Below are positions 3,295-24,254 of a DNA stretch of 31,669 nucleotides, one piece after another. The DNA comes from a virus, in IMG/VR virus record IMGVR_UViG_3300023180_000241, positions 1-31,669 of that record; one strand, 5' to 3'. The translations under genes and the position numbers were made by a program. Within the stretch, counting starts at the first letter, position 1; each line of letters opens with the position of its first letter. The notes beneath the pieces are model-generated. The model had not been told where the DNA came from and searched no databases. It worked only from the letters and a program-made list of their open reading frames with translations.

Positions 3295-3571
3295 TAAATC
3301 TAATAACTCACGCTTAGCTTCCATGAGAAGCACTCCTATCCATGAAGAGTTGCTGCCCAACTCTAAAGTTGAGCTTAACTTTTCTGATGGGGCAAAAAAT
3401 AAAAAGTCATACTTGACTGGTTTTGAAGCTGGTGTGAACTTAATTATGGAATACTGGTTGAAGGGTGTTGAAAAGAGAGAAGTGCTTGATAACCTTGAGC
3501 AGATCAAATGGGTCATGCGAGATCAGATTCAGCGATCTGGGAAGTCTGCGCCGAAGCCGGTAAGTAGATGA
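3284..3571 (+). CDS. Hypothetical protein, about 95 aa, TTG start
   Basis: I place the start at TTG 3284 because AAAAGGAG sits 10 bases upstream; ATG 3242 lies deep inside the preceding gene, and ATG 3323 has no ribosome binding site. The product has a basic N-terminus, a middle segment with GFEAGVNLIMEYWL, and a C-terminal helix rich in Glu, Gln and Arg. No family recognised. It is the last gene before the terminator at 3643-3685, so the transcription unit entering from the left edge probably ends here. Confidence 0.6.
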   Translation: MATNKSNNSRLASMRSTPIHEELLPNSKVELNFSDGAKNKKSYLTGFEAGVNLIMEYWLKGVEKREVLDNLEQIKWVMRDQIQRSGKSAPKPVSR

Positions 3572-3642
3572 TGGCTGCACGCAGAAAGTAAGACGGGGTT
3601 GCGGATCCGGGGGGATTTTTATCCTGTCTTGCTGTGCAGCTT

Positions 3643-3685
3643 GGGGGGAGGTGAGAGACGTTCTCTTGCCTCCCCCTTTTTGTAG
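3643..3685 (+). terminator. Rho-independent terminator after the first rightward gene run
   Basis: GGGGGAGG pairs with CCTCCCCC, the stem continues with AGAGA/TCTCT around a CGT loop, and TTTTT follows at once. A strong intrinsic terminator between the gene ending at 3571 and the small acidic gene starting at 3694. Confidence 0.85.
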
Positions 3686-3693
3686 GAGGATAT

Positions 3694-3837
3694 ATGCCGA
3701 GAGTAGGTAAAGATATAACACTAGAGCCCTCGTTAGATGAGGAAGATTATCTCGCTGACGAGGAAGAAAAAGATGAAGATTTCTATGGCGATCAAGAAGA
3801 CATAGACATACACTTCAACGGAAGGCATAGGTACTAA
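3694..3837 (+). CDS. Very acidic small protein, 47 aa
   Basis: ATG 3694 is preceded by TAGGAGGATAT, one of the best ribosome binding sites in the window. The 47-residue product is dominated by Asp and Glu (DEEDYLADEEEKDEDFYGDQ in the middle) with a basic tip RHRY. Its stop overlaps the next gene's ATG (TAATG). No family recognised. Small acidic phage proteins are sometimes DNA mimics or host-enzyme inhibitors, but that is only a possibility here. Confidence 0.6.
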   Translation: MPRVGKDITLEPSLDEEDYLADEEEKDEDFYGDQEDIDIHFNGRHRY

Positions 3838-4037
3838 TGGACAAAGAACTTAACGAAGATAATAAAAGAAATAAGTATCTTCTTCCTCACGCTTGTTCTG
3901 CATGTGGAGCATCTGTCTACTTCTGCGAAGACCCAGAGTGCAGATGTTTTCATCACGCATTCGACACGTTCAATGAGTACGAACACGAGCGAACGAACTG
4001 CAAGATCGAAGATGTGGTAGAGTTTATTACTAAGTGA
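3837..4037 (+). CDS. Small Cys/His-rich, probably zinc-binding protein, 66 aa
   Basis: The ATG overlaps the previous stop. The centre holds C20, C23, C30, C35, C37, H39 and H40 in a CxxC...C...C-C-H-H arrangement, which suggests one or two zinc sites; the rest is charged. I cannot assign a zinc-finger family. It is co-translated with the acidic 47-residue protein and immediately precedes the GC-rich structured element and tRNA-Arg. Function unknown; a small regulator is a guess. Confidence 0.6.
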   Translation: MDKELNEDNKRNKYLLPHACSACGASVYFCEDPECRCFHHAFDTFNEYEHERTNCKIEDVVEFITK

Positions 4038-4172
4038 AACCACTGTGCGGAGACCGCAGGCTGCGCCAGTCCCGGACGCTCGTCACGGCGGACCGGTTAG
4101 GGCGAAGTAGCTGTAAGGACCGCCAACAAGGAGATACCGCCCCCGTGACGGGGGGCGGAGACTCTGTTTTAC
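4038..4172 (+). ncRNA. GC-rich structured intergenic element just upstream of tRNA-Arg
   Basis: This 135-base non-coding stretch is clearly richer in G+C than its neighbours. Visible helices: TGCGG/CCGCA (4046-4058, 3-base loop); GGCGGACC (4087-4094) with GGACCGCC (4117-4124), one A/A mismatch; and CCGCCCCC (4137-4144) with GGGGGCGG (4151-4158). The loop and inner stem of the last hairpin, CCGTGACG (4143-4150), is also perfectly complementary to CGTCACGG (4081-4088), so a pseudoknot or switch is possible. GCGGAGAC occurs twice (from 4047 and near 4155). The third hairpin is followed by a short TTTT. It could be a leader, an attenuator or an independent small RNA. No known RNA family recognised. 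Confidence 0.5.
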
Positions 4173-4249
4173 GCACCCGTAGCTCAGTTGGATAGAGCGG
4201 CTGCCTTCTAAGCAGCGGGTCGCAGGTTCGAGTCCTGCCGGGTGCGCCA
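4173..4249 (+). tRNA. tRNA-Arg (anticodon UCU)
   Basis: Full cloverleaf: acceptor GCACCCG/CGGGTGC, D stem GCTC/GAGC, anticodon stem GCTGC/GCAGC with loop CTTCTAA (anticodon TCT), T arm GCAGG-TTCGAGT-CCTGC, discriminator G and encoded CCA. 77 bases. It reads AGA and AGG, codons many bacterial hosts use little. Confidence 0.97.
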
Positions 4250-4294
4250 TGAATAAAACTTTAGGTTTTACAACCCAAAAGAAAGGTGGAAAGC

Positions 4295-4522
4295 ATGAAG
4301 CCTCTAAAGGAAAGCGGAAGGTTCTGGGCTGCTAAATCTTTGCTAGTTGGAAAGGTTGGAGAAAATGCACACTGGAAAGTTTATAGTGAACTAGAGACTG
4401 GAAACATCATTGAGTATTACGAAGACGGGGGGTGCAGGAAGGAGCTGGGCCTACCGTGGGAGCCAGAACTATTGGTTGCCATTGGTGAAGCGATCTGCGC
4501 TCTAGGGGAGAAGAAACAATGA
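4295..4522 (+). CDS. Small protein of unknown function, 75 aa
   Basis: Start placed at ATG 4295, with AAAGGTGG just upstream; an in-frame GTG at 4286 is part of that ribosome binding site. The product reads like a small beta-rich domain (HWKVYSELETGNIIEYYEDG) followed by a helix (PELLVAIGEAICALGEKK). No family recognised. It lies 45 bases behind tRNA-Arg and overlaps the next gene by 4 bases (ATGA), so the two are likely co-translated. Confidence 0.65.
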   Translation: MKPLKESGRFWAAKSLLVGKVGENAHWKVYSELETGNIIEYYEDGGCRKELGLPWEPELLVAIGEAICALGEKKQ

Positions 4523-11975: not shown

Positions 11976-12142
11976 AAAATAGAAAAGGCGACTCCATCAA
12001 TCGCGAATGGTACGAAGCTCACACCGATAATAAGTTAACCAGAGTTATGGTTGTGTACGGGGGGAAGAAGAGAATGGTCTGGGGTATAAAGAGCGGTGAT
12101 TCATACCGCTTTGTAGACAAGTCCAAGGCTGTTCTCAGGTAG
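11963..12142 (+). CDS. Small protein of unknown function, 59 aa
   Basis: ATG 11963 overlaps the DUF3310 gene; AAGGG lies about 10 bases upstream. The product is basic with a short beta-type core: NREWYEAH, LTRVMVVYGGKKRMVWGI, YRFVDKSKAVLR. No motif recognised, though the size and charge would fit a small nucleic-acid-binding protein. Its stop is the last coding position before the structured spacer and tRNA-Ile. Confidence 0.55.
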   Translation: MGGVKNRKGDSINREWYEAHTDNKLTRVMVVYGGKKRMVWGIKSGDSYRFVDKSKAVLR

Positions 12143-12257
12143 TTTGCTGGCAACCTGAAAGAAGGGTTGATCGGGAGCGATCCTTTACAACGGGGATGGA
12201 TGAATATCTCGTTGCCAGCATATGATGACAGAGATAATCCATCCCTCTCCCGACCGT
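12143..12257 (+). ncRNA. Interlocking-repeat (pseudoknot-like) structured element upstream of tRNA-Ile
   Basis: Three perfect complementary pairs lie in this 115-base spacer and interlock: TGCTGGCAAC (12145-12154) with GTTGCCAGCA (12211-12220); TCGGGAG (12171-12177) with CTCCCGA (12247-12253); and GGGATGGAT (12193-12201), extended by TATCTC (12205-12210), with GAGATA (12231-12236) plus ATCCATCCC (12237-12245). The second 10-mer lies in the loop of the GGGATGGAT hairpin, so pairing 1 and pairing 3 can coexist only as a pseudoknot or as alternatives. Pairing 2 encloses pairing 3 and ends just before tRNA-Ile (12258). No coding frame fits. Not a known RNA family to me; a riboswitch, leader, or independent small RNA are all possible. 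Confidence 0.6.
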
Positions 12258-14335: not shown

Positions 14336-14658
14336 TATCTCACACCTCTATTCTTTGGCTGGAACTCTATGTGTATATGATCTTTCTCAAGTACAACATC
14401 GAACTCGCTGCCAAGTTCTTCAGCTAAGCCCTCTGTGAACTCAGCTAAACCTTTAGATTCTATTGCCCATATCCTTATATCAGCAGCATACCCAATATAA
14501 TGAAGGGAACCGTGAGAATGCTTCCCGTCAACAATGGACGTTAGAACCATCTCGTTTATTCCCATACTGTTAAAGTATCCATGAGCTATATCTATACCTA
14601 GCACAAGCTCAGGCTTTATGCCGTTGATAGAAACTCCGTGCTTAGTCCTAATCGCCAT
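14335..14658 (-). CDS. Peptidase M15-like endolysin
   Basis: 107 residues with the M15 zinc-peptidase signature: SLHYIGYAADIR gives H53-x6-D60, and EKDHIHIEF gives H94 and H96, with E91 nearby as the probable catalytic base. The enzyme should cut peptide crossbridges of peptidoglycan, as L-Ala/D-Glu or D-Ala/D-Ala peptidases do. No signal peptide is seen, so export would depend on the holin. The ATG overlaps the giant gene's stop (TGATG), with AGGGGAA upstream. The family has single-domain endolysins of this length. Confidence 0.85.
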   Translation of the reverse strand: MAIRTKHGVSINGIKPELVLGIDIAHGYFNSMGINEMVLTSIVDGKHSHGSLHYIGYAADIRIWAIESKGLAEFTEGLAEELGSEFDVVLEKDHIHIEFQPKNRGVR

Positions 14659-17600
14659 CAGTTTATTCCCCTAAAGAACGGTATAGGTCCGGGCATCATT
14701 TTAGTAAACTCCTGCGTGTTACTAAGAATCTGCTTTATTCTATTATCTATACCATCAATTATATCTCTTTTTCGGGAATCATCCATATTCTTATCTAGGA
14801 AAACCCTAGTCTTCATAGACCTTAGTTCATTAAGATCTGTTTGAATGCTTTCAAGAGAACTCTTTATGGACAGAACATCAGCGTATTTCTCTCTCATTTC
14901 CATAGCTCTTTCTGGATCTTCTTTTTCTAGATCTCTGAGCCCTGAAACAATTCCCCTGACAGAGAAGAAGAAATCATTCCATCTTTGCGTCTGCCCTTCT
15001 GATGCGTTGGCACTTTGGAATATCGCACCGACGATCGGGATTTCATCCTGCCTCCAATTCATCATGATCGGCTTTCCGCTAACCAAAGACGTTACTGAAT
15101 CGAGTAAGCCAAGCATGTAGCTACCCATAGTCCCAGCATATCCTTCTAGAACATGCTCGACAGAAAGGGGGCTAAGCGGTACTGGGCTCAGGTATGAAAG
15201 CTGCTTTGCGAACTCGCTGGTATAATATTTAGCTTGAAGTTCTTTCGGCCTATCTTGCATATACTCAGGAACGATAGGCTTGCCGGTAAACCAACTCTTA
15301 TTAACCAAGACTTCAAATATCGGAGCCACCGCTTGCGGTCCAGTCAGCGGAAGCTCAAGCGAGTTGACGATTCCTCTAGTTACGGAATTCCCAGCTTCCC
15401 TAAGCGACTCATCTTGTAGTATGGCTCTAGTTATATGCTCTGGAATTACCTTGAATATAAGACCAACTTCAAAGGGGATGGGTATCTTTAAAGTTGTTTG
15501 ACCGGGTAGCGTAATGAGCCAGTTGTCATCTCTTTCCGCGTCTGTCGCGCCCTTGTATTCTTCATCGTCTATGGATAGGGATGTATACAGGACAGTCATA
15601 GCTGCCAGAAACAGTCCCCTTCTCAAGAACGATGCTTGAGCTTCTTCCTTACCCAACCTGTTAGCTGAATACTCTCCAGTTAAAGACCTGTATATCACGT
15701 CCAAGCCTTGCATTCTCGCGTTGAAGAACGGAAGGGTTGGCAGTATGGTATTTAGGAAAGCATTGTTTCCCTTTCTGGTGAAGTTCAGAACTTCCATAGC
15801 CTGAAATATTGCTTCGGCTTCGGCCTCGGCTCTTCCAACGCCCTTGTTGAGCAGTCTCTGTAGAGTGTCCTCATAGACTACTTGCCTTGTCGCAGCATCG
15901 GAAACTTGAGATGCTTCACCCAGCGAATCCCATATTCTTGAGAAGATGGGAGTGACAGAATCAACACTCCCCTTCTTCATGGTCATTCCCTGCTTACGCA
16001 TCTTCTTTCTGAAGTTTTCTTCAAACTTCTTAGGCTCGAACACATAATCGTACCCGCCTACGATCCCAGCATTTTCAAGTACTGAGTAGGTCTGTGTTCT
16101 GTCGCCAGATAGATCACCAATGAATTTATTCATAGTGTCTATTACTGGTTTCATTTCCACACCGGATGTAACATAAGAAGATACTGAATCCCTGAACAAG
16201 TTCCTGAATATAAACATAGGACTTCTTGCTACGGACTCTCGCAACCAAGAAGCTGGCTTAGCGAAGAACGGGGATATGGATACGTTCGGCCTTGTAAATC
16301 CCTCTATCGCAGCAACCAACTTATCATCAGTAACATCAAAGTATCTCTCTTCTCCGTTGACCCTCACTGTGTAGTATGCGGGATCAACATATCCATTCTC
16401 ATCCGCAAATACTTCTGTTGCGATCCCTGCATCGACAGCATCTTTCATGGTCTGCTGAGCTGCAAGATTCTTCATGCCAGCAGTTATTGATGCGCTTAGG
16501 TTTTTCATGATGCCCGTGAGGGGATCATCTAGCTGCTGCTCTCCACCCTTCATCCTTCTGGGTACTTTATTGTCTATAAGGCTAGGGAATAAACTCTTTA
16601 GCCTTCTCACTCTTCCCAGTGTGAGATCAATTCCTTCATCCTGAAGAATCTGCTTGAATATCTCCGGCCTTACGCCTTCTTCCCCGGTACCATCCAGATC
16701 TAAGTTTCTGTAGAAGGGAATGTAGTCAGCGTACTTAACAAATACTCTCGCGAGTTCTTCGTTGATTACGCCTGTGTCTTTCAAGAACTCGACTAGGCTT
16801 CCATTCCATTCTTCGTAATCTCTTCTCACGCTCTCGAAGAGCTGTAGATTCCCGCTGCTATTTACATAGTCATTAACTCTGTTCACTTCTTCTTGTGACA
16901 GAGGAGTAAGCCTTCCTGATCTCATGATATTTGTAGATCTGTTTGCGACCATCCAAGTCGCCCACTCTCTATACAAATATTCATTAGATTCAAACAGTGG
17001 CTGAAGAGCCTGCGTTAAACTCTTTTTTGTCGGATCTATTCTTGCGATCCCGCCTCTTAAAACTACGGCTCCATTGTTTATCATTGCTGAAGTGAGACTG
17101 TTGGATCTGTCAGCTAAGAGCCATAGGGAATGAGCATTCGTGCTTGCGAGTAGCTCTCTCTCATCTTTCTTGCGTAAAGATGCTTTCTTATTTACTTTAG
17201 CTATGTAATCATATTTATCTAGGAATGCAGACCTGAATCTAGATATGTATTCTTTTCTTTTTTCATCATCAAATATGATGGACTTTATCTTGTCAAAGAA
17301 AGACTCTTGAACATTCGGCTTTGCGTAAAGAGTGTTGAGTATTTGTTCAATACTTCTATCTACTCTCGGCTCCGTCCTGACGATTCTATTTTTATTTGAA
17401 GCAGATAATCTTTCAGGCTTTGTATTTCCGTCTGCTATCGACGCAGATCTGATGCTAAGTCTTTCGTCAGACTCGAAAGCAGGACGCTTTTTAGCGTAGA
17501 GTTTCTTAACTATTGATATGGCTTTGTCTTCGTAGATGACGTAGTTCTTTGCTTTCGGATCGTAACCCGGCGTTAGTGAGGCGGCATCATAGTAATGCCC

Positions 17601-20600
17601 CTTGATTCCGTACTTATTCAAAAGCTCTGAAGCGTACTGCTCTCTCTGCCCAAGGAATGAAAGCTCGTCGTAAAATTCAACGGCTAATGCGTCTCCGTCC
17701 TCTCCGTAGAGTTCATTAAACTCCTCGGACATATTTTCAGATTCAAAAGCCTTCCTGAAAGCTTCCACAACCTTCGGGCTCTGGTCTCTCATAGAGCCGT
17801 TGTAATCAAATAGGTCTTCTTTTTCAGGTATTTCAACTTCGTAAAGTTGAGATTCTATATTAAAATCATCTTTTGATATAGAATTCATAGCATTAACAAA
17901 CTCTTCGCTAACAAGCCTAGCAGCATTATCTTTTACTTTTTCAGATTCATAAAAGATTCCTATATTTTTAATCCCTCTAAATACTGCGTCGCTAATTGAT
18001 GTAGCTATTTCAAAAAATCTATTTGAATACCAATCATCAGTATTTAAAATATTAAGATCTGTGTTGACTTGTTTTCTAAGGTCTGATAAAGATGCTCTTG
18101 CAATTTCATTTTCTATACTTTTTCTTACTTCGCTTCTCTGGGCATCTGTGAAATCTATGTTGTCATAAATTTTTATTTTCGATATCTCAACCGCTTTATT
18201 AGCTATGTTAAATGTTGTAAATTGCTCGTCCAGTGGGTGAAACCCAAACTCTTCTCCCTTGTAAGTAATTTTACTTAGAGAATTCGCATAGAATCTCCCA
18301 ATAGATAACAAGTCAGTGAAGTAAAGTCCCCACCCAAAGGCTTGTGCGCCCTCACCAGTACCTATGAAATCCAAACTAAACTCGTCAAAGTCTTCACTAG
18401 ACCCGTGATAAGCTTTCGCTAGCCGCTCGTCATTGAAGTCTCTAACAGCTCTGTTTGTGAAATCCATCCTAGAATATTCATTTACTCTAGGGATAGACCG
18501 TTGTGCATTCGGGCTCGGCTGATTTAGCTGAGTGTAAGGGGATACTGAAAACCTTTCTGACTCATCTGACTGCCTTATTTCGTTCTCCCACATTTCAGTA
18601 GTGGCAGTATCCGCATCCATCAGATAGTCTACAGCTTTATCGAGTGCTATTTTGTAATTTAACGCACGATCTCTAAGAGCATCAAGCTCATCGAAAACGT
18701 ATTCCATCTGCTGTTCTTGACTGAGATAATCAGCTCCCATATCTACAGCCGCTCGCCGTGCTGTTACAAAGGCTTCACTATCCATTGCCAAGCCGGTCTT
18801 AGCTTCAACAAGTCTCCTTTCAAATCTAAGTTCGTTTTCTCCTTCCCTAAGCTGTCTATACGAATCTCCATATCTTCTATTCGCTGATAGATCTAAGGAG
18901 GATCTAGAGAAAGGTTTTAAATAAGAGGGAAGTATCGAAAGGTCAGAGCCAATCATTTCAAGAACTTTATCAATTTTCTCTTCTAGCTTCTGACCTAAAG
19001 ACCCTATCTCTACAGACAACTCACCCGGTATCTCAAATCTTTCCCAAACATAGTAGTCTCCAGAAGAACGATTGTTTTCTACGTCATCGGACTGCCTTAT
19101 TTCGTATTCTGGCATAGACCTTTCAATCAAAGTGTATTCTGGCATAGACCTGTCAATCAAAGTGTATTTATAATTACCTTTCTGCATTGTGAAAAGAGAG
19201 TCAAGCCGCTCTGCCTCTTCCGTTACCTCGTATCCAAACTTCTCACCAAGCTGCTTAGATCCTCTTCTGTATATTTTAATTCTTGATCTTTTTTGTTTTG
19301 AATTTTCTTCTCGTGTGGTAGTAGCAGCGGAGAAGAAAATTCTTCTAGGGTTTTTTAAAAGAATAATCTCTTCCATGATATCGAAAATAGTTTTGAATAT
19401 TCTGATAGACCCTAATCCATGTAAGCCAGTTACTCCGTAACCCATTTCATCATCTTTAAAAACTACGTCGTAATCTCCGCTGTCACCGTAAGTACTTGCA
19501 TTTAAAGTTATAGTGACATTATTTTCCGTGGCGAACGTAGCGAGTAGGCCGCCATCCCATGAAGGCCTCATTTCATAAGGATATGGAACCGCTCGATCGA
19601 CAAGCGATGCGTACCTTTCCTCAAACTCTTCTTCATTTTCCCTTAGTATAAACTCGTACTCGCCGTCTTCTGTCTTTTCTAATATGAACTCTGATCCGCC
19701 CTCGGTCCTTTCTTCAATTAACCTGTATCCATACTTCTTCGCTAGATTATTTATTCCAGCCCCGTACAGCCTTTGCCTAGTCTTTACCAGCCTGAATGTT
19801 CCGTCTGGTTCCTCTCTAAGATCTGACGCAGCATCGAAGTAAAGAGATTTAAAGTCTTTATTCTTTATAACTTCTTCTGTTAAATCAAAAACTGTAGCGA
19901 ATAATCTTCTAGCTTTTCGACTGCCTAACTTGCCTGTTCTATCAAATTGAAGCCCCGGAGAAGCTAATGCATCCTCAAACGCTACATAGTATTCTCCGTC
20001 ATACCCGAAAGCATCATAGTTAATTCTTGCTAATACAGAATTTCTTTTTATATTCTTGTCTTCATCATATTCAAAACTTTCGCCGACGGGAATAAGTATC
20101 GTTGCTCTTAACGAGCTTCCGTCTTTTCCACCAATTTCTCTTTCCGTTATAGAATATTCAAATCTTTTAGATTTATCTAGAATAGAAGATAATCTTTCAT
20201 CGCTGATATCATCTATTTCTACTTCTTCTGAAAGGTTGACTTGATCTGGCGATACAGAAAATGGCGACGGAGCGACGGACATTCTCTCGCCAGAACCAAC
20301 GCCGCTTTCATCCTGCACCGTGTAACTGTACTCGCCCTTCTTCGCTAAAAAGAAAGATTCCTTATCTCTTACAGTTTCCTCTACGGCGTACCCGAAGTCC
20401 TTGCCCACATCCTTCATCATGCGACGGTAGATACTCGCTCTGGATGTAGATTTCTCCCCTTTCCTGTTCAGTCTGCTGGCGGAGATGCTTAACTGTTCAG
20501 GGTTCTTAGACTCCACAAATTCCCTGAGTAGGTTGTGTACAGTCTTAAAGACCCTGAGAGCGCCGATGCCTTCCTTTCCAGTGTCCCCGTAGCCAAGTAG

Positions 20601-23600
20601 AGATTTCTTGTCTCTATCGTCTAGATCCCTAAATTCTGCGGTCCAACGTATGCTGCCCCCGTCGTTGGACGCAAAGAATTCAAATCTGCTTCCTGACTCA
20701 GAAACGAAGTTTGCAATAAACTCATTTGGATTTGAGTCAGACACCTCATACTCATACGGATCAACCCGACCCATAAACCTTGCAAGTCTTTCATCTACAT
20801 CTACAGAAAATCTTGCGTCAACATCTTCTTGCGTCGTGTCTTCTTCTGGGATCTCTATAGGCAAAGCAGGCATGAGTTTATTTCTCTGCCCCTGTATCGT
20901 TCTGACTTCGCCCCGATCCCTTGCCTGTATCTTCTTCATGCCGCTGATAACATCAGCCGCATTGACGAATCCAGCTCCGCTTAAAGCGTTGAACATCTTC
21001 TCTAAGAACATCGCTATTCTTTCGATAAGAGTTCTGGGCTTACCAGCGATCTGCCTTCTCACCTCGGGAACGCTGTAATACTGCCGGTACATCTCTGCCA
21101 CAGCTTCTTCTAGTATATATTCAGCGTCGCCCATTCCTTGATAGGTCTGAGATGCCCAGTCGAAGAATGTCTGACCGTCTCTGTTCCTTACCCGATAAGT
21201 TGAATTGGATAAGACATTCCATTCTTGAATGGTAAATAAGTCTAAGTCTCTCATTGCATGGACTATCTCATGGTCCATGATGCTGGCAATGAGAACTCGC
21301 ATCTCTTCGTTGGTCTTGGCCTTGCTGACTGCTTCTAAGCTTATAGCTATACGCCTGAACCCATCGTCATTAGGGCTGTAAGCTCCTTCGTTGATTCCGC
21401 TAGAGCCTATCTTTTCCCTTACAGATGCAATGACTTCCTTGCTGAGATTCGCTTCTTTCAGCTTGCTATCTATAATAGATAGAATCTCTTCACCCTTCTT
21501 AACGCTCCCTTCGGGAATGCTCTTGAGAACCTTAGCTCTCTTAGATACGGGAGTGAGTCTCTCGGGTTCTGCCGGTAACACAGCCGTGGAGACAGCCGAA
21601 TCAATATCTCTTAAGAATCTTCTTTGAAGTGATTGCTTCTTTCTTTCCTTTGCTCGCTCGCTGTTGGCTTCCCAGTTAGATTCTCCGGGCTCAAAGGACT
21701 TCGAGTATTCATCCTTTAATGCTTCAGCAATATCTCTAGTCGGAGCGAAGGTTATCTCGGTAACATTCACCCTCTTGTTACTGGACGGATTCTCAGATCT
21801 AGATACTTCGCCCGTAGCTCTGTTCTTGAAATAATCATAGGGTGAAACAAACTGTCGAACTGCGAACCCTTCGCCGTCTATGACAGAGAACTTACCCTTG
21901 TAAGGCTCTATCTTCTGACCGCGATAGTCCGCGAGTCTGGCCGTACCTCTCATGTATCCGGGGAGTCCGGCAGATCCAGTCTTGGATCGTTCGACTGCGG
22001 CCTTTACGTCTGAATACTTGCCGACCAGCGGGTTACCAGTTGTCTTATCGAAAACTCTATACAAAGCCCTGTTCTGGTTTAGGAACTTTGCTTCTTTCTC
22101 TGCATCCTTTTTGTTTACAGATCCACCCACAACGGTTCCATCTTCGTCCACAACGAAGAAACCATTCTGAGAATCCATAACTTCAGTCACAACATTGCCA
22201 GCGGTTGATCTGCTGAGTATTCTTTTCTTATCCACAGCACCGGCTTTGATTACCGGAGAGCCGTTCTTATTGAGTAAAGGTCTTATATCCGCGTCTTCAG
22301 AAGATTCATCCATTTTAGATCTAAACGATACGGGCGCGTATTCGCCTGCGGATTTCATTTCTTCAGTTCTTGTCTTGGATAGATCACCTCTGACAGTCGC
22401 ATCTGAAACAAAAGAATTGAAATCCTCTTCGTTGAATCTTCCGGTTACTCTTTCGTAATCACCACGATTTATAGAACCAGAATCCTGAGCTTCTTCGATT
22501 AAAGCTTCGTACTGAGCTTCTGTATACTTAGGCTTTCGCGCTTTCAATGACCCCTTTTCTTCTACCGCATATCCCTTCCTCTTCATCTCTTCGATGATGG
22601 AGTTGGCTATAATCCTAGAGCCTTCGGAGTCTGCGAACTGAACAGGAGATTCTTGATTCTTCTTGAAGAACCTATCGTTCAATCTCTTTCTTACTGCATC
22701 TGAAGTAATCTTCTGCCCACTCTTGAAACCCTTTACCGCAGAATCAAACTCCTCTGAAGTAAACGAGGGAAGGCTTACGCCATCCCCCTCTTCATCGAAG
22801 TATGATTGAACTGTCAGTCCAGAAAGAATTGTACGCATTGCACTACGCTCATCTTGCGTAGTCTCATTTAAGTTTGAAGTTCTTCCTCCGGTACTTCGGT
22901 ACACAAAGGATTTGAAAGCATTATCGTTTGTCTTTATATTTCTAGATCTGGCAGCGTCTATGACATGAGAAGCATCCACAGGGAACTCGTCTTTGGCTCT
23001 CTGTGCTTCCCTTTCGATATTCTCTCTCTGTCCAGATAGAGCTGCTTCTTCTGCCGCTACTCTGCTTTCGTACTGGTTGAGATTATCTTTGTATCTCGCT
23101 ACAGATTCTTCGTATCTTCTCTGTAGAGTATCTTCTCTTCTTTTTTCGTATCCATTTCTTATTTCCTTTTCTTTTTCGGATAGCTTTTCCCAATTATCAA
23201 ATGCCTTTTTGTTGGATCTGTACGCTCTAGCAGTTCCGAATGATCCAAACGCGCCGACAACAGGAGCGGTTCCAGCTACAACATCCATCATCTCGCTGAC
23301 GAAATTTGCGTCCTCGAACGAAATGGACTCTCCAGCTTGAGCCCTTTCAAGCACGGTCTGTGCAAGCTCTGTCGGAAACTCAAGCAGAGACTCTGTGAAA
23401 GCTTCTTTTGCAGATTCCTTCAAGCTAGGGAACGTGGCTGCTCTGGCTGTCCCACCGGCTAACCTGAGGGAATCTTTCACAGACTTGGCGGCGGCGATCT
23501 GAACTCCCCTGCCAAGTCCTGAAGTTAAGGCTATCGTTATGAAGTCCATTGCTGCTTGCGGTCCAGCAGCCAAAGCGGCAGAGTATAGGGTTATGTCATC

Positions 23601-24254
23601 AGGCGTTACCCTGCCTTCAGGGTCCTTGCTCTCGGCAACCTCATATTGTCTTTGCAAATTGTCGCCAAGGAACTGTAGGGCGAGCGTGCCAACACCCGCC
23701 AAGGTTCCTAAAGCAACCTTCGCATATGGGTTGGGTATTGCTGCACCAGCCCTAGCGAGCATGGGAACAGCCCTGCCAATCATAGATGCTGCTCTTACGC
23801 CGAGTGAAGTTTGTGCCGCAGATGAAGCAGCTAATGAGGGAAGCGTGTACGGTATTGTCTGGCCTATGGCCTGAGCGCCAAACCTATAAGCCTCTGGTAA
23901 CGCTCCAGATATCCCTTCTTTCTCATAGGCTTCTACAACATCTTCTCTGGTTGTCGGTAACGGCTGAAGCTTTCTCTGCTCTTCCTGAGTGGCTCTATAT
24001 ATTTCCCCGGCTTCATCTAGACTTTCTTGAGATCCGAACACGTCCCCGAAGATCATACTCGGAAGAGCAGATATAGATCCCTTCAGGGATTCAACGCCAG
24101 AAAGGAAGGCATTATCCAGCCCGCCAGTCAGCCCGGTGCTTCGCCTTCTAAGTTCTTTCTCTACATCATAAAAGGAAGTACCCTTTTTAAATTCAACGAT
24201 CTCACCGTTGATGGGGACTTTAAAATCTCTGTCGAGAAAACCTTCTTTAGCCAT
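14658..24254 (-). CDS. Giant polyvalent protein (3198 aa): zincin motif, three-copy repeat, ART-PolyVal, LPD38-like
   Basis: By far the largest gene. From the N-terminus: an Ala/Gly-rich hydrophobic region (about 100-340) that may touch membranes; coiled charged segments; a zinc-peptidase motif MDHEIVHAMRDLD (HEIVH at 995-999) with a downstream EEAVAEMY; three tandem copies of one domain (about 1165-1310, 1363-1530, 1556-1695); an ART-PolyVal-like domain with AYHGSSEDFDEFSLD and GWGLYFTD (about 1945-2265); and a C-terminal region with SPFFAKPASWLRES and LNFTRKGNNAFLNT, as in LPD38 (about 2620-2880). Position after virion genes and before lysis genes suggests an ejected internal virion protein, playing the part of T7 gp16 or the N4 virion polymerase, though no polymerase motif is seen. 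It overlaps the endolysin start. Confidence 0.85.
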   Translation of the reverse strand: MAKEGFLDRDFKVPINGEIVEFKKGTSFYDVEKELRRRSTGLTGGLDNAFLSGVESLKGSISALPSMIFGDVFGSQESLDEAGEIYRATQEEQRKLQPLPTTREDVVEAYEKEGISGALPEAYRFGAQAIGQTIPYTLPSLAASSAAQTSLGVRAASMIGRAVPMLARAGAAIPNPYAKVALGTLAGVGTLALQFLGDNLQRQYEVAESKDPEGRVTPDDITLYSAALAAGPQAAMDFITIALTSGLGRGVQIAAAKSVKDSLRLAGGTARAATFPSLKESAKEAFTESLLEFPTELAQTVLERAQAGESISFEDANFVSEMMDVVAGTAPVVGAFGSFGTARAYRSNKKAFDNWEKLSEKEKEIRNGYEKRREDTLQRRYEESVARYKDNLNQYESRVAAEEAALSGQRENIEREAQRAKDEFPVDASHVIDAARSRNIKTNDNAFKSFVYRSTGGRTSNLNETTQDERSAMRTILSGLTVQSYFDEEGDGVSLPSFTSEEFDSAVKGFKSGQKITSDAVRKRLNDRFFKKNQESPVQFADSEGSRIIANSIIEEMKRKGYAVEEKGSLKARKPKYTEAQYEALIEEAQDSGSINRGDYERVTGRFNEEDFNSFVSDATVRGDLSKTRTEEMKSAGEYAPVSFRSKMDESSEDADIRPLLNKNGSPVIKAGAVDKKRILSRSTAGNVVTEVMDSQNGFFVVDEDGTVVGGSVNKKDAEKEAKFLNQNRALYRVFDKTTGNPLVGKYSDVKAAVERSKTGSAGLPGYMRGTARLADYRGQKIEPYKGKFSVIDGEGFAVRQFVSPYDYFKNRATGEVSRSENPSSNKRVNVTEITFAPTRDIAEALKDEYSKSFEPGESNWEANSERAKERKKQSLQRRFLRDIDSAVSTAVLPAEPERLTPVSKRAKVLKSIPEGSVKKGEEILSIIDSKLKEANLSKEVIASVREKIGSSGINEGAYSPNDDGFRRIAISLEAVSKAKTNEEMRVLIASIMDHEIVHAMRDLDLFTIQEWNVLSNSTYRVRNRDGQTFFDWASQTYQGMGDAEYILEEAVAEMYRQYYSVPEVRRQIAGKPRTLIERIAMFLEKMFNALSGAGFVNAADVISGMKKIQARDRGEVRTIQGQRNKLMPALPIEIPEEDTTQEDVDARFSVDVDERLARFMGRVDPYEYEVSDSNPNEFIANFVSESGSRFEFFASNDGGSIRWTAEFRDLDDRDKKSLLGYGDTGKEGIGALRVFKTVHNLLREFVESKNPEQLSISASRLNRKGEKSTSRASIYRRMMKDVGKDFGYAVEETVRDKESFFLAKKGEYSYTVQDESGVGSGERMSVAPSPFSVSPDQVNLSEEVEIDDISDERLSSILDKSKRFEYSITEREIGGKDGSSLRATILIPVGESFEYDEDKNIKRNSVLARINYDAFGYDGEYYVAFEDALASPGLQFDRTGKLGSRKARRLFATVFDLTEEVIKNKDFKSLYFDAASDLREEPDGTFRLVKTRQRLYGAGINNLAKKYGYRLIEERTEGGSEFILEKTEDGEYEFILRENEEEFEERYASLVDRAVPYPYEMRPSWDGGLLATFATENNVTITLNASTYGDSGDYDVVFKDDEMGYGVTGLHGLGSIRIFKTIFDIMEEIILLKNPRRIFFSAATTTREENSKQKRSRIKIYRRGSKQLGEKFGYEVTEEAERLDSLFTMQKGNYKYTLIDRSMPEYTLIERSMPEYEIRQSDDVENNRSSGDYYVWERFEIPGELSVEIGSLGQKLEEKIDKVLEMIGSDLSILPSYLKPFSRSSLDLSANRRYGDSYRQLREGENELRFERRLVEAKTGLAMDSEAFVTARRAAVDMGADYLSQEQQMEYVFDELDALRDRALNYKIALDKAVDYLMDADTATTEMWENEIRQSDESERFSVSPYTQLNQPSPNAQRSIPRVNEYSRMDFTNRAVRDFNDERLAKAYHGSSEDFDEFSLDFIGTGEGAQAFGWGLYFTDLLSIGRFYANSLSKITYKGEEFGFHPLDEQFTTFNIANKAVEISKIKIYDNIDFTDAQRSEVRKSIENEIARASLSDLRKQVNTDLNILNTDDWYSNRFFEIATSISDAVFRGIKNIGIFYESEKVKDNAARLVSEEFVNAMNSISKDDFNIESQLYEVEIPEKEDLFDYNGSMRDQSPKVVEAFRKAFESENMSEEFNELYGEDGDALAVEFYDELSFLGQREQYASELLNKYGIKGHYYDAASLTPGYDPKAKNYVIYEDKAISIVKKLYAKKRPAFESDERLSIRSASIADGNTKPERLSASNKNRIVRTEPRVDRSIEQILNTLYAKPNVQESFFDKIKSIIFDDEKRKEYISRFRSAFLDKYDYIAKVNKKASLRKKDERELLASTNAHSLWLLADRSNSLTSAMINNGAVVLRGGIARIDPTKKSLTQALQPLFESNEYLYREWATWMVANRSTNIMRSGRLTPLSQEEVNRVNDYVNSSGNLQLFESVRRDYEEWNGSLVEFLKDTGVINEELARVFVKYADYIPFYRNLDLDGTGEEGVRPEIFKQILQDEGIDLTLGRVRRLKSLFPSLIDNKVPRRMKGGEQQLDDPLTGIMKNLSASITAGMKNLAAQQTMKDAVDAGIATEVFADENGYVDPAYYTVRVNGEERYFDVTDDKLVAAIEGFTRPNVSISPFFAKPASWLRESVARSPMFIFRNLFRDSVSSYVTSGVEMKPVIDTMNKFIGDLSGDRTQTYSVLENAGIVGGYDYVFEPKKFEENFRKKMRKQGMTMKKGSVDSVTPIFSRIWDSLGEASQVSDAATRQVVYEDTLQRLLNKGVGRAEAEAEAIFQAMEVLNFTRKGNNAFLNTILPTLPFFNARMQGLDVIYRSLTGEYSANRLGKEEAQASFLRRGLFLAAMTVLYTSLSIDDEEYKGATDAERDDNWLITLPGQTTLKIPIPFEVGLIFKVIPEHITRAILQDESLREAGNSVTRGIVNSLELPLTGPQAVAPIFEVLVNKSWFTGKPIVPEYMQDRPKELQAKYYTSEFAKQLSYLSPVPLSPLSVEHVLEGYAGTMGSYMLGLLDSVTSLVSGKPIMMNWRQDEIPIVGAIFQSANASEGQTQRWNDFFFSVRGIVSGLRDLEKEDPERAMEMREKYADVLSIKSSLESIQTDLNELRSMKTRVFLDKNMDDSRKRDIIDGIDNRIKQILSNTQEFTKMMPGPIPFFRGIN
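19111..19170. repeat. 30-bp tandem duplication inside the giant gene
   Basis: Two copies of a 30-base unit beginning GGCATAGACC, 19111-19140 and 19141-19170, with a few mismatches (T/G in the middle, last bases). It encodes a repeated TLIxRSMPEY decapeptide just after the third domain copy. In-frame, so the protein is not broken; probably a recent slippage or linker duplication. Confidence 0.8.

Follow-up and report, generated by a model that had tools for sequence, protein, structure and literature searches.

Comparative analysis gives good support to the view that nucleotides 4038–4165 of the window, by which is meant the whole 31.7-kb viral (IMG/VR) fragment analyzed here, specify a real structured RNA from an uncatalogued family common to several kinds of environmental phages. 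It is likely that the family is new and that its members are compact structured noncoding RNAs carried by phages, which possess two arms with kissing loops, are released from a longer transcript, and act in trans. Our best reading is of a mobile and dispensable phage noncoding RNA that probably acts in trans, the function being one that we infer. The element and its immediate neighbors are:

3837–4037, plus strand: open reading frame for a Cys-rich protein of 66 amino acid residues, ending directly before the RNA
4038–4165, plus strand: the whole noncoding RNA element, approximately 128 nt, its limits taken from the covariance model and the alignment
4173–4249, plus strand: tRNA-Arg(UCU), starting 7 nt after the RNA

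The stretch containing the element has a GC content of 65%, against 45% for the window as a whole, and only 51 of 31,534 segments of 135 nt are equally GC-rich; on this point, and in placing the element just before a tRNA, the original prediction was correct. Folded as a single sequence (137 nt), it gives a z-score of −2.4 relative to shuffles, indicating moderate stability only. The octamer GCGGAGAC does occur twice, at 4047 and 4155 and nowhere else in the entire window, as had been remarked, but it is not conserved among relatives, looks incidental, and was rejected as a significant feature. Attention had also been drawn to a perfect 8-bp complement, and 4081–4088 (CGTCACGG) and 4143–4150 (CCGTGACG) are indeed exact reverse complements. 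Since a perfect complement of at least 8 nt arises in 272 of 2000 dinucleotide shuffles (14%), this feature alone is unremarkable for such a GC-rich stretch, and homologues were needed to settle the case.

Ten further distinct homologues were found, giving 11 sequences with the window; all members besides the window derive from uncultured metagenomic viral contigs. A primase/helicase search supplied relatives of the phage; the element is 95% identical to that of the window in L012 (with an identical copy in L027) and 78% identical in L009. Scans with the conserved core yielded L032, L033, L039, L041, L043, L046, and L048, and then the divergent L091. Identities measured against the window and against L091 range over 52–93%. 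Most members served to train models R1 and R2, and the 147 bits scored by the window with R1 is the score of a sequence in the training set; L091, scored by a model from which it had been left out, reached 47 bits (E 3.8e-9). Nineteen other contigs with the same 16-nt core received no model score, and the remaining hits of the broad scans were, by model score, chance matches. Nothing beyond chance hits came from a scan for the kissing loop together with the core. Among 84,980 prokaryote genomes, pattern matching picked out a single site, attributable to chance, and in 398 Pseudomonadota genomes the model matched nowhere. Blastn of three family members against phages, and of the window's copy against plasmids, returned chance-level pieces only, and the RNA is absent from five cultured relatives of the phage backbones. 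A search with the neighboring protein (778–2283) obtained no relatives. The PHROGs name for this protein is HNH endonuclease, which may be a misannotation; Pfam assigns it DUF2201 metallopeptidase and VWA-like domains. Elsewhere in the window, 14658–24254 encodes a protein of 3198 residues that matches only PHROG families of unknown function.

Comparison of the homologues shows an RNA composed of a long irregular 5′ arm (P1, P1a, P1b, P2, and P3) and a 3′ hairpin (P4), the 6-nt loops of which kiss:

4047–4050 with 4120–4123, plus strand: P1, 100% paired, with compensatory versions GCGG/CCGC, GUGG/CCAC, GCAG/CUGC, and GGGC/GCCC
4056–4059 with 4111–4114, plus strand: P1a, three pairs compensated, 89% of cells paired
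4064–4067 (CGCC) with 4101–4104 (GGCG), plus strand: P1b, 100% paired and invariant
4072–4075 (CCGG) with 4093–4096, plus strand: P2, with compensatory C-G/U-A and G-C/U-G changes
4077–4080 with 4087–4090, plus strand: P3, two of four pairs compensated and G-U variants at the other two
4081–4086, plus strand: loop of the 5′ arm, CGUCAC, one half of the kissing helix, pairing with 4145–4150 in 11 of 11 sequences
4096–4110, plus strand: the GUUAGGGCGANGUAG core, the most conserved stretch (alignment columns 67–81) and a candidate contact surface
4130–4165, plus strand: P4, the 3′ arm, with outer stem 4130–4133/4162–4165, a 3 × 3 internal loop, and inner stem 4137–4144/4151–4158
4145–4150, plus strand: loop of the 3′ arm, GUGACG, the other half of the kissing helix

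In the full structure (11 sequences, including L091) 95% of the cells of its 38 pairs are paired, and 23 of these pairs exhibit changes on both sides that preserve the pair, against 3–8 in slid control structures; none of 500 shuffles matched the observed structure on any of five measures. When 10 sequences were aligned, RNAalifold and manual inspection for covarying helices agreed on P1, P1a, P2, P3, and P4, the program independently recovering a nearly identical nested structure. Compensation in P4 extends to all four outer pairs and to six of the eight inner ones; L091 has only a weak inner stem, and P1a is formed only in part in L009 and L041. Since P1b never varies it is a putative pairing only, and RNAalifold offers CUGC/GUAG as an alternative in that region. 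A local GCGG/CCGC hairpin at 4047–4050 was rejected, being paired in 8 of 10 sequences versus 10 of 10, with covariation, for P1. The window element possesses P1, P2, P3, P4, the 6-bp loop–loop helix, and the GUUAGGGCGANGUAG core, the features that define the new family. The alignment contains G-U pairs in 28 cells and A-C in 3, an asymmetry that shows the RNA to be read from the plus strand, the same strand as the tRNAs; a minus-strand RNA was rejected on this ground. The homologue alignment also includes stop codons and single-base indels, which break the reading frame, so that a protein-coding element was likewise rejected.

In every one of the 11 sequences six of the eight pairs of the complement persist, three of them by compensatory change, and it is because the homologues preserve the pairing that we regard the complement as real. 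The kissing helix itself comprises 6 bp, 4081–4086 with 4145–4150, and is 100% paired across the 11 sequences. Its loop sequences are invariant in ten members and have both changed in L091, where CACUAC and GUAGUG stand in place of CGUCAC and GUGACG; all six positions still pair, three of the pairs being compensated. The loop covariation, read on a MAFFT alignment built without structure, depends on this one divergent sequence, and half of the helix never varies. An exact 6-nt complement occurs in 0.7% of shuffles of the L091 apical hairpin. Scan 37, by which further members were found, required neither loop, and the loop conservation in those members is therefore not an artefact of the search. 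The contact may be made within one molecule or between two; the two arms are unequal in length.

The original prediction offered a pseudoknotted small RNA or a switch, to be judged by covariation among homologues. The former is borne out in the shape of a kissing-loop RNA that is conserved, with strong covariation, in its relatives. The latter held that 4081–4088 and the 3′ hairpin were mutually exclusive, in the manner of a terminator and an antiterminator. The complement that this requires does exist, but six of its eight paired bases on either side are hairpin-loop bases, so the contact accommodates both hairpins and there is no competition. Prohibiting every other pairing of the loop bases left the minimum free energy unchanged in 9 of 11 homologues, so that these bases are free for the loop–loop contact; the two conformations that had been proposed as rivals are consequently one structure. 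In seven of the sequences the conserved helices depart from the optimum by no more than approximately 0–2 kcal/mol. Furthermore, no U-run follows P4, the hairpin was not called as a terminator, and the only terminator-like site nearby in a terminator scan is upstream, at 3643–3677. The switch is largely refuted and we give it practically no credence; a loop contact kept by matched mutations points to a real RNA rather than to a terminator switch.

Two other noncoding stretches of the window deserve mention. The element had been likened to one near 12143; the likeness holds for position, but the two are unrelated, and kinship between them was rejected. That stretch (12130–12257), which lies ahead of tRNA-Ile, is a candidate RNA in its own right: it comprises a GCTGGCAAC/GTTGCCAGC stem, an AAGGRTYG hairpin, and perhaps a GGGATGGAT/ATCCATCCC pseudoknot, and of the relatives only the close ones L002, L003, L004, and L014 were seen to have it. 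A third structured noncoding stretch, 3568–3690, contains nested GCTGCAC/GTGCAGC, AAGAC/GTCTT, and GGAT/ATCC arms, is 82% conserved in L009 (14188–14262) across 79 nt, and has the strong terminator at 3643–3677 after it.

The RNA precedes tRNA-Arg(UCU) in the window, L012/L027, L032, and L041, while in L009 it lies after tRNA-Leu, tRNA-Arg being elsewhere; the upstream neighbor is a tRNA in L032 and L009. In the siphovirus-like contigs L033, L039, L043, L046, and L091, it follows the small gene that ends the replication cluster (DNA polymerase, helicase, and dNMP kinase were identified in L039 and L091), and downstream are found a terminator hairpin and then convergent lysis/tail genes. In the T7-like phage L048 the RNA likewise comes after a small gene, with a terminator as well as a T7-type portal gene downstream; the homologues without a tRNA have a separate terminator after the RNA. 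Within the siphovirus-like group L091 is only about 57–62% identical but retains the genomic slot; alignment of these copies indicates that the sequence has drifted while the structure has held. The fragments of these various backgrounds have almost no proteins in common, a comparison that is a limited test since they represent different parts of the genome. Very similar copies of the RNA are found in L041 and L009, the backgrounds of which differ, and L003, a 95%-identical phage, has neither the RNA nor the 66-residue open reading frame. Judged from these contexts, the RNA is a discrete unit that occurs in different phage backgrounds and gene settings and can be missing from a near-identical phage.

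Several side observations concern the same neighborhoods. The RNA and the 66-residue open reading frame are jointly missing near L003 8003–8009, as if a cassette had been lost or gained, and a relative of this Cys-rich open reading frame is located elsewhere in L032. Directly after tRNA-Arg, L027 (7824–8310) and L012 (8565–8990) contain a long run of GAxLxG-type (pentapeptide-like) repeats. L091 4348–4782 encodes a phage protein with a C-terminal VPEP-hydrophobic-Arg tail, matching PEP-CTERM weakly and below the curated cut-off, which is possibly a clue to the host.

A riboswitch or cis-acting leader is expected to precede a conserved gene or pathway; no such gene or pathway is shared by the contexts here, where the RNA is followed by tRNA-Arg in some contigs and in others by further genes or by a terminator facing convergent genes. 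A cis-acting 3′-end element, the fold of which would shield the upstream transcript from exonucleases or govern processing between genes and tRNAs without any target in trans, is an unlikely alternative. In most contexts without a tRNA the RNA starts some 0–15 nt after the upstream stop codon, it is placed last before the terminator or tRNA, and the single slot retained throughout the siphovirus-like lineage would also fit such a role there. Against this, the upstream partners share no function, being tRNAs in two contigs, and a plain stabilizer would need neither an invariant core nor a specific kissing loop. Very unlikely, in our estimation, is a cis regulator of the put-RNA kind (phage HK022) that helps polymerase to pass the next terminator. 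A terminator does follow the RNA in the siphovirus-like group and in L048, an agreement in position only; the genes past it in the former are convergent, so that read-through would be antisense, and the tRNA arrays have no following terminator.

At the curated threshold, Rfam yields no match for the window or for four further members, and permissive thresholds gave no convincing match, the best permissive hit of L091 covering its downstream terminator. No description of this RNA was found in the open-access literature. It is best read as broadly similar in kind to GOLLD and ROOL but as a separate family. GOLLD is a structured phage noncoding RNA of unknown function, with kissing loops and often near tRNA islands, and ROOL, which occurs in phages or prophages close to tRNA islands, has conserved kissing loops; in GOLLD, ROOL, and OLE kissing loops form between chains (PMC12286853). 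Our RNA resembles GOLLD in being a structured phage noncoding RNA with kissing loops and a tRNA-island association, but many GOLLD members exceed 800 nt, whereas this one has about 128 nt and a single loop–loop contact; it ends at that length, where GOLLD members run to several hundred nucleotides and include a conserved 3′ domain, and it matches GOLLD neither by covariance model nor by sequence. ROOL shares the position near phage tRNAs and the kissing loops, but is large, has multiple pseudoknots, and its covariance model does not match. In sequence, size, and fold alike, GOLLD and ROOL are unlike this RNA. The phi29 prohead RNA is a further compact phage RNA in which loops pair with each other. 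It differs from this RNA in fold, no Rfam match to it was found here, and there is no packaging gene common to all the contexts.

Theta ribozymes are small pseudoknotted RNAs beside phage tRNAs, with a cleavage site at the tRNA 3′ end (PMC10879173). A self-cleaving ribozyme trimming adjacent tRNAs in this fashion would account for the tRNA neighbors and for an invariant core within a compact, pseudoknotted fold, but we consider it highly improbable. Theta and other HDV-like ribozymes fold into a nested double pseudoknot in which P1 is 5′-terminal, whereas two hairpins and a kissing loop are found here, and no ribozyme family matched even at E 10. Unlike them, this RNA usually stands upstream of a tRNA or has none nearby, and where an upstream tRNA is present its 3′ end is 12–24 nt away.

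We favor a trans-acting RNA, an action suggested by one line of evidence, the changing neighbors. It would be made within a longer transcript, a tRNA operon here and the 3′ region before a terminator elsewhere; the finding of no promoter-like site in 3500–4500 fits such production. Processing of the 5′ end of tRNA-Arg, 7 nt downstream, would free the 3′ end of the RNA, and termination would release it in the contexts without a tRNA. The RNA would then act during infection upon a host or phage factor through the invariant internal-loop core (GUUAGGGCGANGUAG with CUGCGCC). More tentatively, and as a possibility to which we would not yet commit ourselves, it constitutes a new class exchanged horizontally among podo-like, siphovirus-like, and tRNA-rich phages, the core of which binds a host component and which may form loop–loop dimers or larger RNA-only particles.

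Few structured phage RNAs are linked to tRNA islands, and the result extends their number by a compact, well-defined family. With a length of about 128 nt, such an RNA can feasibly be synthesized, probed, and have its structure solved, which makes both its function and the intermolecular loop contacts testable. Its spread over phage backgrounds together with its loss in a close relative marks it as an accessory gene, a status that suggests a host-directed or defence-related role.
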